Under the pieces are notes generated by a model, which saw nothing but the letters and a program-made list of their open reading frames with translations, did no database searches and had not been told where the DNA came from. Positions 38,004-64,000 of a stretch of DNA of 64,000 nt are shown piece by piece (the stretch's first letter is position 1; the number at the start of each line of letters is the position of its first letter). Source of the DNA: Streptomyces seoulensis (GTDB lineage: Bacteria; Actinomycetota; Actinomycetes; Streptomycetales; Streptomycetaceae). The stretch is taken from the NCBI RefSeq assembly GCF_022846655.1, contig NZ_AP025667.1, forward strand, positions 5,245,001-5,309,000. Reading direction: 5' to 3'. The position numbers and the translations under genes were made by a program.

Positions 38004-38112
38004 GGCCTTTCTTCCGGATCGGGCCGACGCGGACCTACGGCGCCTTCCGGCCGACCCGAGCGGGGTCTGCCAGACCCCGCGACCGCGGCAAGATCCGGAA
38101 GACAGGCCCTAG
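38000..38112. repeat. 113-bp palindromic element between the core region and the gene cluster
   Basis: The 21-bp ends 38000-38020 and 38092-38112 are reverse complements at 20 of 21 positions, each beginning or ending in CTAGGGCCT. A smaller perfect hairpin (GCGGGGTCTG/CAGACCCCGC, 38060-38080) sits inside. The outer CTAG on each side supplies the TAG stop codon of the two convergent genes (38001-38003 forward, 38109-38111 reverse). It could act as a two-way terminator or be a dispersed insertion element. Confidence 0.85.
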
Positions 38113-61700: not shown

Positions 61701-64000
61701 GTTCAGGAAGAGACCGAGGGTGCGTTCGGCGTCCTGCCGCTCGGGGCGCCCGCTGTGTTCGTAGCCGGTGGTGATGTCGTCGCGTCCGGCGGCGAAGGAG
61801 AGCACGGCGGTGTGCGCGGCGAGCAGTACGGACTTGACGGGGACGCCGAGCCGCGCGGCGGTGGCGAGCAGCTCGGGGCCGAGGCCGGCGTCGAGGGGCA
61901 CGTCGAGGGTGCGGACGGTCTCGGCGGGGTCGAGGCCGGCGCCGGGGTTGCGGGGCAGCGCGGTGGCGTCGGCGCCGTCGAGCCGGGTGAGCCAGAAGTC
62001 GCGGGCCTCCTCGGAGGCGACGGCCCGCTGTTCCAGGGCGACGAACTCCGCGTAGTCGGTGCCGGGCCGGCCGGCGGTCGCGCTGGCGTCGAAGCAGAGG
62101 TCGAACAGGTCGTAGAGCAGCCGGTTGACGCTCCAGCCGTCCAGGGCGGCCGCGTGGTAGCTGAGCAGCAGGTGGTGGCGGTCGCCGCCGAGCAGGCACA
62201 GCCGCATCCGTACGGGGCCGACGGTGCCCTCGGGGAAGCCGGTGGCGAGTTCCTCGGCGGTCGCCTTCTCCAGGTAGGCGCGCTGGGCGTCGGGGTCCCG
62301 GCCGGTGAGGTCGACGGTGGTGCACCAGTCGGGGGTGTCGCGGTGGACGACCTGGGTGGGCCGGGAGAAGCCGGCTGCGTGGAAGGAGGTGCGCAGCATC
62401 GGGTGGCGGCGGGCCGCCTCGGTCGCGGCGCGCCGGAAGCGGGCGGGGTCCAGCGGGGCGTCGTAGCGGTAGCCGGAGACGTCGTGGTAGACGGCGGCGT
62501 CACGGGTGGCGATCTCGTAGAGCAGCCCGGCCTGGAGGCTGGAGAGGGGGTACGCGGCCTCGGCGTCGGCGGGCAGCGCGGCCCGGTCGGCGGGGGTCAG
62601 GGCGGCGAAGGGGGCCGGTGCCTCGGGCGCGTCGGGTCCGGCCCGGCGGACCAGGGGGGCGAGCAGGGCGACGGTGGGGTGGGCGAACAGTTCCTGGAAG
62701 GTGAAGTCGAGCCCGGCGCGCCGGGCGGCGGCCAGCACGCCGATGAACTTGATGGAGTCGCCGCCGAGTTCGAAGAAGTTGTCCGTGACCCCGAGGTCCT
62801 CCCGGCCGAGCGCGGCGGCGAAGATCCCGGCCAGCTCCTCCTCCAGCGGGGTACGAGGGGCCACCCGGCCGGTGCCCGGAGTGGCCGGCAGCGCGGCGAG
62901 GGCCTTCAGGTCCCGTTTGCCGTTGGGGGTGCGCGGGATCTCCGCCACGGTCACGAACCGGGCCGGGACCATGTAGGAGGGCAACTGCCGGGCGAGCCCC
63001 GCGCGCAGGGCCTCCGTGTCCGGCCGCGCCGACACGACGTACGCGCGCAGGGCGCCTTCGTGCAGGGCCACCGCGCACTCGGTGACCCCGGGGAGCGCGG
63101 TGAGGACGTGCTCGATCTCGCCGGGCTCGATGCGGTGGCCGCGCACCTTCACCTGGTCGTCGAGCCGGCCCAGGTACTCGACCGTGCCGTCCTCCCGCCA
63201 GCGGGCCGCGTCGCCGGTGCGGTAGCAGCGTTCGCCGGGCGCGGTCGGGTCGGGCACGAAGCGCTCGGCGGTCAGGCCGGGGGCGCCCAGGTAGCCGCGG
63301 GCCAGACCGGCCCCGCTCAGGTACAGCTCGCCCGGCACGCCGACCGGGGCGGGGCCGCCGTCGCGGGTGAGGACGCGCAGCCGGATGTTGTCGATGGGGG
63401 TGCCGAGCGGGACCGGGCGGCGCGGGTCGTGGCCGGTGCAGTCGTGGTGGGTGACGTCGACGGCGGCCTCGGTCGGCCCGTACAGGTTGACCAGTGCCGG
63501 GGCGTCGGGGCCGGGGAAGGCGCGGGCGAGGGCGGGTATCGCGTCGGCGGGCAGCGCCTCGCCGCTGGCGAAGATCCGGCGCAGCCCGGTGGGCGCGGTG
63601 CCGTCGGCGAGGTGGGCGAGGAACGCCTGCAGCATGGAGGGCACGAAGTGCGCGGTGGTCACGCCGTGTTCGGTCATCCGGCGGACGAGGGCGGCCGGGT
63701 CGCGTTCGTCGCCGGAGGGCAGGGTGCTCACCGCGCAGCCCGCGAGCGCCCACCAGAAGATCTCCCACAGGGAGACGTCGAACGCGGTGGGTGTCTTGTG
63801 CAGGATGACGTCGCCGGGGGTGAGCGGGTACTGCCGCTGCATCCAGCGCAGCCGGTTCACGATCGCCCGGTGTTCCACCATGACGCCCTTGGGGCGGCCG
63901 GTGGAGCCGGAGGTGTAGATGACGTAGGCGAGGTCGCTCTCGGTGGCGAGCGGGGGCAGGTCGGTGCCGTCGAGCGCGGCGAGCGCCGGGTCGGCGGGGT
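58764..64000 (-). CDS. NRPS, partial at right edge: A(Ser)-PCP-C-A(Dap/Dab-like)-PCP-TE
   Basis: About 1,744 residues are visible; the 5' end lies outside the window. Domain order: first A domain (rest of it), PCP with LGGDS near 62757-62768, C domain (SYHAAALDGWS, first His of HHxxxDG replaced by Tyr), second A domain (VIFTSGSTGEPKG; LMVTGEAFAP; NAYGPTEASDD), PCP with LGGHS near 59620, then TE. Pocket readings are DVWHFSLVDK for A1 (serine, as EntF) and DIWEMTADDK for A2, resembling diamino acids such as Dab/Dap. The TE nucleophile motif is GHCAGAG, with Cys (codon 59268-59270) instead of Ser. Together with SbnA/SbnB it should build a Ser-Dap unit. First gene of the six-gene reverse operon as seen. 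Confidence 0.9.
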   Translation of the reverse strand, partial: PADPALAALDGTDLPPLATESDLAYVIYTSGSTGRPKGVMVEHRAIVNRLRWMQRQYPLTPGDVILHKTPTAFDVSLWEIFWWALAGCAVSTLPSGDERDPAALVRRMTEHGVTTAHFVPSMLQAFLAHLADGTAPTGLRRIFASGEALPADAIPALARAFPGPDAPALVNLYGPTEAAVDVTHHDCTGHDPRRPVPLGTPIDNIRLRVLTRDGGPAPVGVPGELYLSGAGLARGYLGAPGLTAERFVPDPTAPGERCYRTGDAARWREDGTVEYLGRLDDQVKVRGHRIEPGEIEHVLTALPGVTECAVALHEGALRAYVVSARPDTEALRAGLARQLPSYMVPARFVTVAEIPRTPNGKRDLKALAALPATPGTGRVAPRTPLEEELAGIFAAALGREDLGVTDNFFELGGDSIKFIGVLAAARRAGLDFTFQELFAHPTVALLAPLVRRAGPDAPEAPAPFAALTPADRAALPADAEAAYPLSSLQAGLLYEIATRDAAVYHDVSGYRYDAPLDPARFRRAATEAARRHPMLRTSFHAAGFSRPTQVVHRDTPDWCTTVDLTGRDPDAQRAYLEKATAEELATGFPEGTVGPVRMRLCLLGGDRHHLLLSYHAAALDGWSVNRLLYDLFDLCFDASATAGRPGTDYAEFVALEQRAVASEEARDFWLTRLDGADATALPRNPGAGLDPAETVRTLDVPLDAGLGPELLATAARLGVPVKSVLLAAHTAVLSFAAGRDDITTGYEHSGRPERQDAERTLGLFLNTLPFRVRTDAPSWADLVRRVYDEESALLPHRRYPMGEMARHLRRPLFEAVFNFTHFHVLGALARRHGARLHRVSVHSQTEFPLRAEFSRDALDDTVGLQLHYDGSVFDRAGVERFGGYYLRALRALAADPDAPPFARTFMSEEERDWLARHRTGPVREVPGTTLLDRFADTAARHPERTAVGHGPDTLTYAELDRASDRLARALTARGAAPGDVVAVRMPRGLPWAVSLLGVMKAGAVYLPQEPGDPAERLRHAVTRSGCRHILDPAEYTALLAPPETGTDSDGTPPAHRPGPDDPAYVIFTSGSTGEPKGAVVEHRGMLNHLQAKVDDLALTGDDVVSQVASQCFDISVWQLVAPWLTGGRSVIHDRVTDPADFLDTVVSEGVSVLEVVPSLLDALLDTLRAAPRELPRLRWLMVTGEAFAPALARRWFAAYPAIPVVNAYGPTEASDDITHHILRAPVHTERVPVGAPVINTTLHVLAENGTPVPPGTLGEIHVTGPCVGAGYVNDPERTAAAFPANTLDTTSARAYRTGDLGRWLPDGTLDCVGRRDQQVKLRGHRVELPEIEQTLTRIEGVDQAFAEVRRDGGRTLLAVWYTGDAEPGAGRLREEAARLLPAYMLPDVVARLDEVPLNRNGKADRNALAARPLPALTARTPEPPADDTERAIVRLFADALGVPEESVGADDDFFDLGGHSLAAMAVAARSDGLVTVRGLLQGRTARALARGAAGTGGLLVELAAAEDPELTVVCFPYAGGSPVGYLPLAKALEDTGPVRFRALDLREEGVPATGALLRDLAAELADVTGPLVLLGHCAGAGIALALARALPSRPPVVLVGRALKSTDPADHPVAEVTAASEETVATWVVPGEPGAPAPDTGPAVLRALRRDTALGNAFLRELLTAPVRADHPLTVVLAADDPVTRGHEDTVARWGLLARTPHVVRTEDGGHYLNQSRPHLLASVLRRSAADGAPEGPHAVRQRP

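Follow-up and report, generated by a model that had tools for sequence, protein, structure and literature searches.

The stretch of DNA analysed here, a window of 64,000 nucleotides at bases 5,245,001-5,309,000 of the single-contig 6.54-Mb genome of Streptomyces seoulensis, has ordinary core metabolism at its left border (glycine cleavage T and H, serine hydroxymethyltransferase, and serine dehydratase) and contains, at 38.1-47.8 kb on the minus strand, an eight-gene operon that combines ATP-grasp ligases with a glutamine synthetase (GS)-like ligase, an N-hydroxylase, and an oxidase. To its right lies a nonribosomal peptide synthetase (NRPS) cluster that carries genes for the synthesis of L-diaminopropionate (L-Dap). 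A sequence-only reading of the window had treated both as a single hybrid cluster; the genes that it listed are present at the places it gave them according to gene calls, Pfam, and NCBIfam, with the GS-like ligase, the NRPS, and the free-standing adenylation-carrier (A-PCP) protein and condensation (C) domain all recovered as Pfam matches, and we consider it likely that they constitute two biosynthetic clusters lying side by side. As that reading had proposed, searches of the open-licence literature listed no described cluster with this gene set. Genes were called with a simple codon-model caller over 115 kb, comprising the window and sequence fetched rightward, and were scanned against Pfam and NCBIfam; lower-GC genomes were compared by tblastn instead of codon-model gene calls. 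In an empty-site comparison of the left border, the best other match was genome G408, with 81% identity over 737 of 2200 bases.

The eight-gene operon and its enzymes

The operon is transcribed in the order ATP-grasp, DAO-family oxidase, N-hydroxylase, GS-like ligase, peroxiredoxin, MFS exporter, ATP-grasp, and ATP-grasp-like, and in the window three of its gene junctions are gaps (34, 8, and 43 bp) and four are short overlaps. By the start calls of this analysis, no gap between the genes exceeds 116 bp in the window and four named loci, and the overlaps there are short. The genes, from first to last, are:

46508..47803, minus strand: g44, ATP-grasp of the L-amino-acid-ligase type (LAL_C2), first enzyme gene of the operon (PF18603, PF13535; PDB 3vot, an L-amino acid ligase, E 6.5e-21)
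45238..46473, minus strand: g43, DAO-family flavin adenine dinucleotide (FAD) oxidase, 411 aa from the upstream ATG (PF01266)
43826..45229, minus strand: g42, flavin N-hydroxylase, predicted to act on N6 of L-Lys (PF13434; PDB 4d7e, E 2.5e-106)
42498..43826, minus strand: g41, GS-like ligase (PF00120/PF03951; aligned to 8oow and 7tdp)
41984..42454, minus strand: g40, PrxQ/BCP-like peroxiredoxin with two cysteines (GGCTTGLC) (PF00578; PDB 5epf, E 6e-6)
40675..41991, minus strand: g39, MFS exporter (PF07690)
39449..40678, minus strand: g38, ATP-grasp of the L-amino-acid-ligase type (LAL_C2) (PF18603 and PF13535, over cut-off)
38109..39452, minus strand: g37, third ATP-grasp ligase, with a glutathione-synthetase-like fold, last gene of the operon (predicted structure, Foldseek, profile match)

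None of the eight genes has a Pfam match to PP-binding, AMP-binding, or Condensation. The peroxiredoxin g40 was absent from the earlier gene list, as were the oxidoreductase g48 (52431-53300) and a 52-aa open reading frame (ORF) at 47853-48011, both described below.

Three ATP-grasp ligases had been claimed, and g38 and g44 are assigned as such by Pfam. The g37 protein has no match in Pfam, in NCBIfam, or in single-sequence searches of the PDB, and its AlphaFold model, built from an alignment of 20 relatives (pLDDT 91.2), has glutathione synthetases as its best PDB matches (8fbz, E 7.7e-17, Foldseek) and also matches glutathionylspermidine synthase 3n6x (TMq 0.67) and YgiC/YjfC. Because the predicted structure matches the glutathione-synthetase/glutathionylspermidine-synthase ATP-grasp fold, g37 is an ATP-grasp ligase, and the third ligase of the operon is confirmed at the level of the modelled fold. 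The model also matches the structure of Cp1B (9cjn, E 3.4e-13, Foldseek), and a g37 profile finds Cp1B by sequence (E 5.7e-4).

The GS-like protein g41 retains much of the GS core, and differs from GS in three motifs, with the flap GYEAP replaced by ASGTP, DGSS by DGSV, and NGSGMH by YGNALH; the altered motifs are identical in all seven loci searched, six of which are distinct. The flap Glu of GYEAP is catalytic in true glutamine synthetase, and g41, which has no such residue, is not a true glutamine synthetase by this measure. It scores above the Pfam cut-offs yet below all five of the NCBIfam GS cut-offs listed, with 328 bits against 429 for GlnA and 278 against 650 for the gamma-glutamylputrescine synthetase model. 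According to PMC6133997, the Km of the GS homologue FzmN for acetylhydrazine is far below its Km for ammonia, and since a GS homologue of this type exists, a non-ammonia nucleophile is plausible for g41 by analogy.

The hydroxylase g42 had been described as an MbtG-like lysine N6-hydroxylase. The lysine type holds, with L-lysine N6 probably the substrate, but the closest solved structure is that of the L-Lys monooxygenase 4d7e, which we take to be NbtG of nocobactin synthesis, and MbtG is matched only at E 6e-8; among the matches listed, g42 is 44-50% identical to Nocardia proteins. For the oxidase g43, the upstream ATG was chosen as the start, as in relatives of about 411 aa, and some of its relatives at 34-42% identity carry the source name gamma-glutamylputrescine oxidase. 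The closest named match to g42 is in S. griseoluteus JCM 4765 (94%), and S. bauhiniae provides the closest named matches to the oxidase (92%) and the GS-like protein (96%).

Recurrence of the operon and its probable separation from the NRPS cluster

All eight genes, identically ordered, are also found in S. griseoluteus, S. triculaminicus (locus L076), S. griseocarneus 132, S. griseocarneus JCM 4580 (L138), S. roseicoloratus (L078), and genome G650, which with the window gives seven operon loci, genome G636 and S. triculaminicus being counted as one. Among the best named relatives, five Streptomyces loci besides the window exceed 60% identity to the hydroxylase, and each operon protein is 65-80% identical to that of the window in the four distant named loci. 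The S. triculaminicus and JCM 4580 loci are a close pair (87-96% per protein, with flanking genes common to both), so that, with the window and S. griseoluteus set aside, the remaining five loci represent four lineages: this pair, S. griseocarneus 132, S. roseicoloratus, and G650. Hydroxylase relatives above 60% are present in 3 of 343 Streptomyces genomes, that of the window included, and a match of any strength in 80. Homologues were listed as 90%-identity clusters, many without an organism name; of the 120 oxidase rows listed, 27 clusters have at least 67% identity and the next at most 51%, and the best 120 of 1368 GS-like rows comprise 24 clusters at 65% or more, followed by values of 46% or less.

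The flanks of the operon were searched by tblastn with the proteins of the window and of the NRPS cluster, and at the five further loci, in four lineages, no NRPS or Dap genes of the window type were found in the flanks read. In the four distant named loci, the regulator and, in S. roseicoloratus, a 31% LysA-like protein are the only flanking gene products that match the window or cluster. The operon excepted, there is no match to the window or the NRPS cluster within 10 kb past g37 and 20 kb past g44 in S. triculaminicus, or within 17 kb past g37 and 7.4 kb past g44 in JCM 4580, while S. griseocarneus 132 has no NRPS-type match within 18.5 kb past g37 and 7.4 kb past g44, its flanks containing besides the operon only the regulator and one 30% ABC-transporter match. 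With the NRPS protein g55 as query (E limits 0.001 and 1e-15), the NRPS-type matches closest to the operon in S. triculaminicus, JCM 4580, and 132 are at distances of about 24, 34, and 70 kb.

In the window itself, the operon and the minus-strand NRPS run, which ends at 53,249, lie about 5.4 kb apart, with four plus-strand genes, g45-g48, between them. Since separate minus-strand runs flank the four plus-strand genes, the gene layout indicates that the two halves are not one transcription unit. Counted from the start of the window, the NRPS cluster spans 49.7 to about 98.5 kb, about 49 kb in all, so that the extension to the right of 64,000 that the earlier reading had called for adds 34.5 kb of it. 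Its genes within the window are:

49727..51460, plus strand: g46, free-standing A-PCP, code DFWNVGMVH (Thr-type) (PF00501, PF00550, PF13193); the true start is probably slightly upstream of 49727
51613..52200, plus strand: g47, 195-aa protein without a family (gene call; Pfam and NCBIfam scans)
52431..53300, plus strand: g48, luciferase-family, F420-type oxidoreductase (PF00296; TIGR03560 and the others listed all below cut-off)
53249..54556, minus strand: g49, free-standing condensation domain (PF00668)
54547..55407, minus strand: g50, AlaX-like tRNA-editing-type protein (PF07973, 26.8 against 24 bits)
55414..56775, minus strand: g51, second diaminopimelate decarboxylase, LysA (TIGR01048, 419 against 298 bits)
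56772..57737, minus strand: g52, SbnB, Dap synthesis (TIGR03944, 391 bits, cut-off 327)
57761..58786, minus strand: g53, SbnA, Dap synthesis (TIGR03945, 352 bits, barely over the cut-off of 350)
58764..64000, minus strand: g54, NRPS A-PCP-C-A-PCP-thioesterase (TE) with an unassigned 243-aa N-terminal stretch, running to 65048 (Pfam)

SbnA and SbnB make L-Dap from phosphoserine and glutamate in staphyloferrin B synthesis, and the claim that the cluster supplies its own Dap is borne out in that both proteins pass the curated cut-offs, SbnA only just. The adenylation codes of g54 are DVWHFSLVD (Ser) and DIWEMTADD (Dab/Dap-like, Dab being diaminobutyrate); under the code-to-residue rule as we assume it, g46 would read Thr, g54 Ser and a Dab/Dap-like residue, and g57 Glu, with the other codes left unassigned. 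The cluster would thus make L-Dap with SbnA/SbnB and load Thr, Ser, Glu-type, and further residues. Beyond the window it adds A-PCP and C-PCP-TE proteins, two TauD-family oxygenases, an MbtH protein, two ABC transporters, an FkbM-type methyltransferase inside an A-containing module, ProA- and ProB-type enzymes, a class I/II aminotransferase, and g64, distant relatives of which carry PF01636.

The LysA-like decarboxylase had been set in parallel with SbnH of staphyloferrin B synthesis. LysA-like it is, and since g51 passes the TIGR01048 cut-off it resembles a second lysA rather than SbnH; a further lysA-like match lies in the genome at 5,462,522. Staphyloferrin B has SbnA/SbnB in common with this cluster, and differs in that no NRPS-independent siderophore synthetase (IucA/IucC-type) has a Pfam match in the window and NRPS cluster. 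Dapdiamide resembles the locus in combining an ATP-grasp with Dap; against its DdaF model (NF041595), however, g38 scores 34.9 bits where 840 are required, g37 has no match, and g44 is not among the best 25 of 32 rows. The genes in common with staphyloferrin B and those in common with dapdiamide lie in different halves of the window.

The NRPS cluster appears to be rare, with relatives outside S. seoulensis, because its marker g64 has few close rows: six non-self rows are at least 64% identical, including NPDC046860 (91%) and S. tendae (67%), and in the two top-scoring other genomes of the 343 Streptomyces it reaches at most 36%. The AlaX-like marker reaches at most 52%, in 3 other genomes of the same set. 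SbnB-like proteins occur in two operon-bearing genomes, at 51% in G650, far from the operon, and at 32% in G636. The AlaX-like/lysA pair (54547-56775) may be an old neighbourhood, as AlaX-like and lysA matches are also spaced 6-9 kb apart in five genomes belonging to the same order (G719, G722, G723, G727, and G730). Just to the right of the NRPS cluster lies a gene for a Scabin-like (PF22596) protein (L013:4433-5059).

Several observations weigh against a clean separation of the two halves. Both occur together in S. griseoluteus (g42 94%, NRPS g55 89%). In G650, past g37, ABC-exporter-type matches begin at 3.4 kb, a condensation-type match is found at 5.9 kb, and g60 is matched at 33% at 12.8 kb, so that an NRPS of some kind is found near the operon in three of the seven loci, two different NRPSs being involved, on opposite sides. 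Because an unrelated NRPS adjoins the operon in G650, the operon may partner recurrently with NRPSs and may feed neighbouring ones. The NRPS-free flanks rest on two lineages, since S. triculaminicus and JCM 4580 form a close pair and count as one, and in S. roseicoloratus only 3.4 kb and 7.2 kb of flank are visible, with a decarboxylase (PF02784; 31% to the LysA g51) directly following g37. In favour of separation, neither NPDC046860 nor S. tendae, the g64 relatives, is named in the oxidase or GS relative lists, although a missing name is weak evidence of absence when rows are 90% clusters and many are nameless. The lysine substrate of g42 is a prediction from homology.

The alternative is that in this lineage there is one hybrid cluster, in which the operon makes an N-oxygenated building block and the NRPS incorporates it by way of the free-standing A-PCP/C pair. 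The presence of that pair, the adjacency kept in S. griseoluteus, and the unrelated NRPS beside the operon in G650 all speak for it. On the other side, the two halves are separate operons divided by the four plus-strand genes, and the eight-gene operon comes with an exporter and a regulator of its own. Under the code as we assume it, the free-standing A domain reads Thr, and in three other loci, from two lineages, the 7-20 kb to each side of the operon contain no NRPS match. We regard this alternative as unlikely. The single-cluster reading thus keeps its gene set and the S. griseoluteus adjacency, and is weakened because the operon occurs alone in other species, its left half being found in five loci of four lineages without these NRPS/Dap genes in the flanks read. 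Our preferred reading remains two neighbouring clusters, and we infer that they are independent in the S. seoulensis strain as well; dividing the locus in this way avoids the chase of a single large hybrid product. The statement that the operon never adjoins an NRPS was considered and rejected, as G650 has one.

Two features beside the operon in other genomes are of separate interest. The decarboxylase gene right after g37 in S. roseicoloratus (L078:18019-19251) encodes a pyridoxal phosphate-dependent amino-acid decarboxylase that may tailor the product there, and in G650 ABC exporters and the unrelated NRPS adjoin the operon at 3,918-3,933 kb (L235).

A small reading frame and the LuxR-type regulator

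Comparison of the regions upstream of g44 revealed a small ORF between the operon and the divergent regulator gene g45:

47853..48011, minus strand: small ORF, 52 aa, C terminus ADTGWG, candidate exported signal peptide (codon conservation, D-x-GWG counts)
48144..49172, plus strand: g45, LuxR-type (GerE) regulator (PF00196, 26.8 bits, cut-off 23.5)

The DTGWG end is found in the window, S. griseoluteus, S. griseocarneus 132, S. roseicoloratus, and G650, with codons that differ at third positions only. The regulator lies beside the operon in five of the seven loci and the ORF in exactly those five, both being missing from S. triculaminicus and JCM 4580. Since it accompanies the operon in five of seven loci, g45 belongs with the 38-48 kb operon; the regulator of the proposed single block is therefore present as claimed, but goes with one half. 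By eye, three of the five ORFs have a hydrophobic signal-like N terminus, that of the window being less clear.

The g45 family is present in all 333 Streptomyces genomes searched. With the strict pattern of D-x-GWG followed by a stop, which was chosen after the sequences had been seen, 7 of 30 regulator loci fetched (116 kb) have a match (the window, G650, L255, L258, L259, L264, and L268), as do 5 of 248 other loci (2.87 Mb), all of which are loci of the same operon and two of which are second copies of the window and G650. A looser pattern matched in 8 of the 30 regulator loci, with L260, L264, and L266 doubtful and with a length limit that hid the ORF of the window itself. Because D-x-GWG ORFs in the fetched DNA occur only beside relatives of the regulator, the 52-aa ORF probably encodes the signal peptide of g45, so that a peptide-signalling switch on the operon is probable from the sequence comparison; the regulator would control the operon, probably by sensing an exported small peptide ending in DTGWG. 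We considered whether the ORF is instead the precursor of a ribosomally synthesized and post-translationally modified peptide acted on by the ATP-grasps. The operon is kept without it in S. triculaminicus and JCM 4580 (one event), and D-x-GWG endings track the regulator family, which makes this reading less likely.

Four of the regulator loci (L255, L258, L259, and L268) have small signal-peptide-like ORFs ending in NDLGWG and divergent from g45 relatives; they look like one orthologous group, possibly part of a wider family of Streptomyces peptide signals, and L264 has no clear signal-like start. Among the open-licence papers listed, those containing DTGWG have no title on Streptomyces or signalling (DLGWG was not searched), and none describes by title a pair of signalling peptide and LuxR/TrmB regulator. 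The D-x-GWG peptide-regulator pair, apparently common to other Streptomyces regulators, would be a handle for waking silent clusters.

Predicted chemistry and related pathways

The favoured product of the operon, on the evidence of its enzyme families, is a small N-oxygenated peptide-like amide. In the route that we propose, the three ATP-grasp ligases and the GS-like ligase would join free amino acids by amide-type bonds through acyl-phosphate activation, g42 would N-hydroxylate, probably at N6 of L-lysine, the DAO-type flavoenzyme would oxidize a C-N bond, the peroxiredoxin would handle peroxide or thiol chemistry, and the MFS pump would export the product, with no carrier-protein domain involved. 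The putrescine (Puu) pathway also pairs a GS-like ligase with a DAO oxidase (PuuA/PuuB), though the score of g41 against the PuuA-type gamma-glutamylputrescine model is far below its cut-off, as given above. The operon falls within the class of NRPS-independent ATP-grasp pathways, which includes Cp1B and the L-amino acid ligases, in having free-standing ATP-grasps (g38 and g44 by Pfam, g37 by fold) that would act as acyl-phosphate amide ligases and in having no carrier or NRPS domain; g37 shares the fold of Cp1B, which in E-64 biosynthesis forms a pseudodipeptide amide without NRPS modules, as described in PMC12568646. It differs from these pathways in bringing together three ATP-grasps, a GS-like ligase, an N-hydroxylase, a DAO oxidase, and a peroxiredoxin. 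What is new here is a compact recurrent pathway, a variant of carrier-free ATP-grasp biosynthesis that includes an N-hydroxylase and a flap-less GS homologue; the ligase set, encoded beside the N-hydroxylase, suggests unusual amide or N-heteroatom chemistry.

A hydroxamate metallophore could be made from the same enzymes if N6-hydroxylysine were acylated by the GS-like enzyme and the units strung together by the ATP-grasps, and both the presumed kinship of g42 with the nocobactin enzyme, together with its 44-50% identity to the listed Nocardia proteins, and the presence of four carboxylate-activating ligases are consistent with this. Yet no acyltransferase or siderophore uptake family is found among the eight genes in Pfam or NCBIfam, no match to the iron box, as we take its pattern to be, occurs in the window with three or fewer mismatches, and a looser version of that assumed pattern shows no excess (9 found, 16 expected). 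We consider the metallophore quite improbable.

The combination of lysine N-hydroxylase and FAD oxidase is also the pair used with hydrazine synthetases in the s56-p1, triacsin, and azaserine clusters, according to PMC11705231 and PMC10445470, and the latter places an ATP-grasp and an MFS gene beside the N-hydroxylase and FAD oxidase of azaserine. The operon could accordingly be an N-N-bond pathway in which N6-hydroxylysine is ligated to an amino acid and a hydrazine-type product is cleaved by the DAO oxidase, without a methionyl-tRNA synthetase (MetRS)-like or cupin enzyme. Distant relatives of g37 and g38 in loci of N-N type (L222, L221, and L219, three of 16 g37-family loci) favour such a route. 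Against it, no MetRS-like or cupin Pfam match is present in the genes of the operon or NRPS cluster, only one of seven MetRS matches in the genome is full-length, and 13 of the 16 g37-family loci contain none of the searched modules at E 1e-7. As a yardstick we used L191:4177-9402, which by eye contains a cupin-MetRS fusion, an FAD oxidase, and an N-hydroxylase; at E 1e-3 nothing there matches g42, and g43 matches over only 39 residues. A canonical hydrazine-synthetase (HAA-type) pathway was therefore rejected for the window, which has no cupin or MetRS and whose g42 and g43 are not close to the L191 enzymes, and the N-N route without them strikes us as likewise quite improbable. The class is not far away, because L222 pairs a hydroxylase 39% identical to g42 (seen by tblastn only) with cupin and MetRS.

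The glutamylhydrazine set of fosfazinomycin and kinamycin offers a further likeness, in that the GS homologue FzmN ligates Glu to a nitrogen nucleophile (PMC6133997); the operon differs in having only the GS-like gene of that set and no amidase, acetyltransferase, or lyase family. A scheme that would unite these elements, with N6-hydroxylysine coupled to carboxylates by the GS-like and ATP-grasp enzymes on a carrier-free route to an N-N or N-O product, without a MetRS/cupin synthetase, and switched on by an exported D-x-G-W-G peptide through the LuxR-type regulator, is a long shot.

The wider ligase family gives context to the preferred carrier-free amide route. At E 0.001, 34 of the 394 genomes of the class, counting that of the window, have a match to g37 (45 matches listed, many of them weak), and flanks were fetched for 16 stretches around the better-scoring matches, including one stretch from S. 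seoulensis itself. A g38-like ATP-grasp accompanies g37 in 11 of the 16, a g44-like one in four, a g45-like regulator in three, and a module of N-N type in three, and the remaining 13 have none of the searched modules at E 1e-7. The g37/g38 pair is thus linked to several chemistries and is by itself no proof of N-N chemistry in the window. L222 and L221 contain MetRS-like, DAO, cupin, and hydroxylase genes with g37/g38-type ATP-grasps, and the stretches L222:1-13008 and L221:4922-17287, from other actinobacteria, are candidate hydrazine-derived amide pathways. L219, at 5,786,001-5,806,000 of the window's own genome, holds a second g37/g38-type ATP-grasp pair with a GS, an amidase, an acetyltransferase, a glyoxalase-family protein, an M20 peptidase, and a 578-aa protein without a family; no lyase was seen there, and in its other genes it resembles the fosfazinomycin/kinamycin glutamylhydrazine set.

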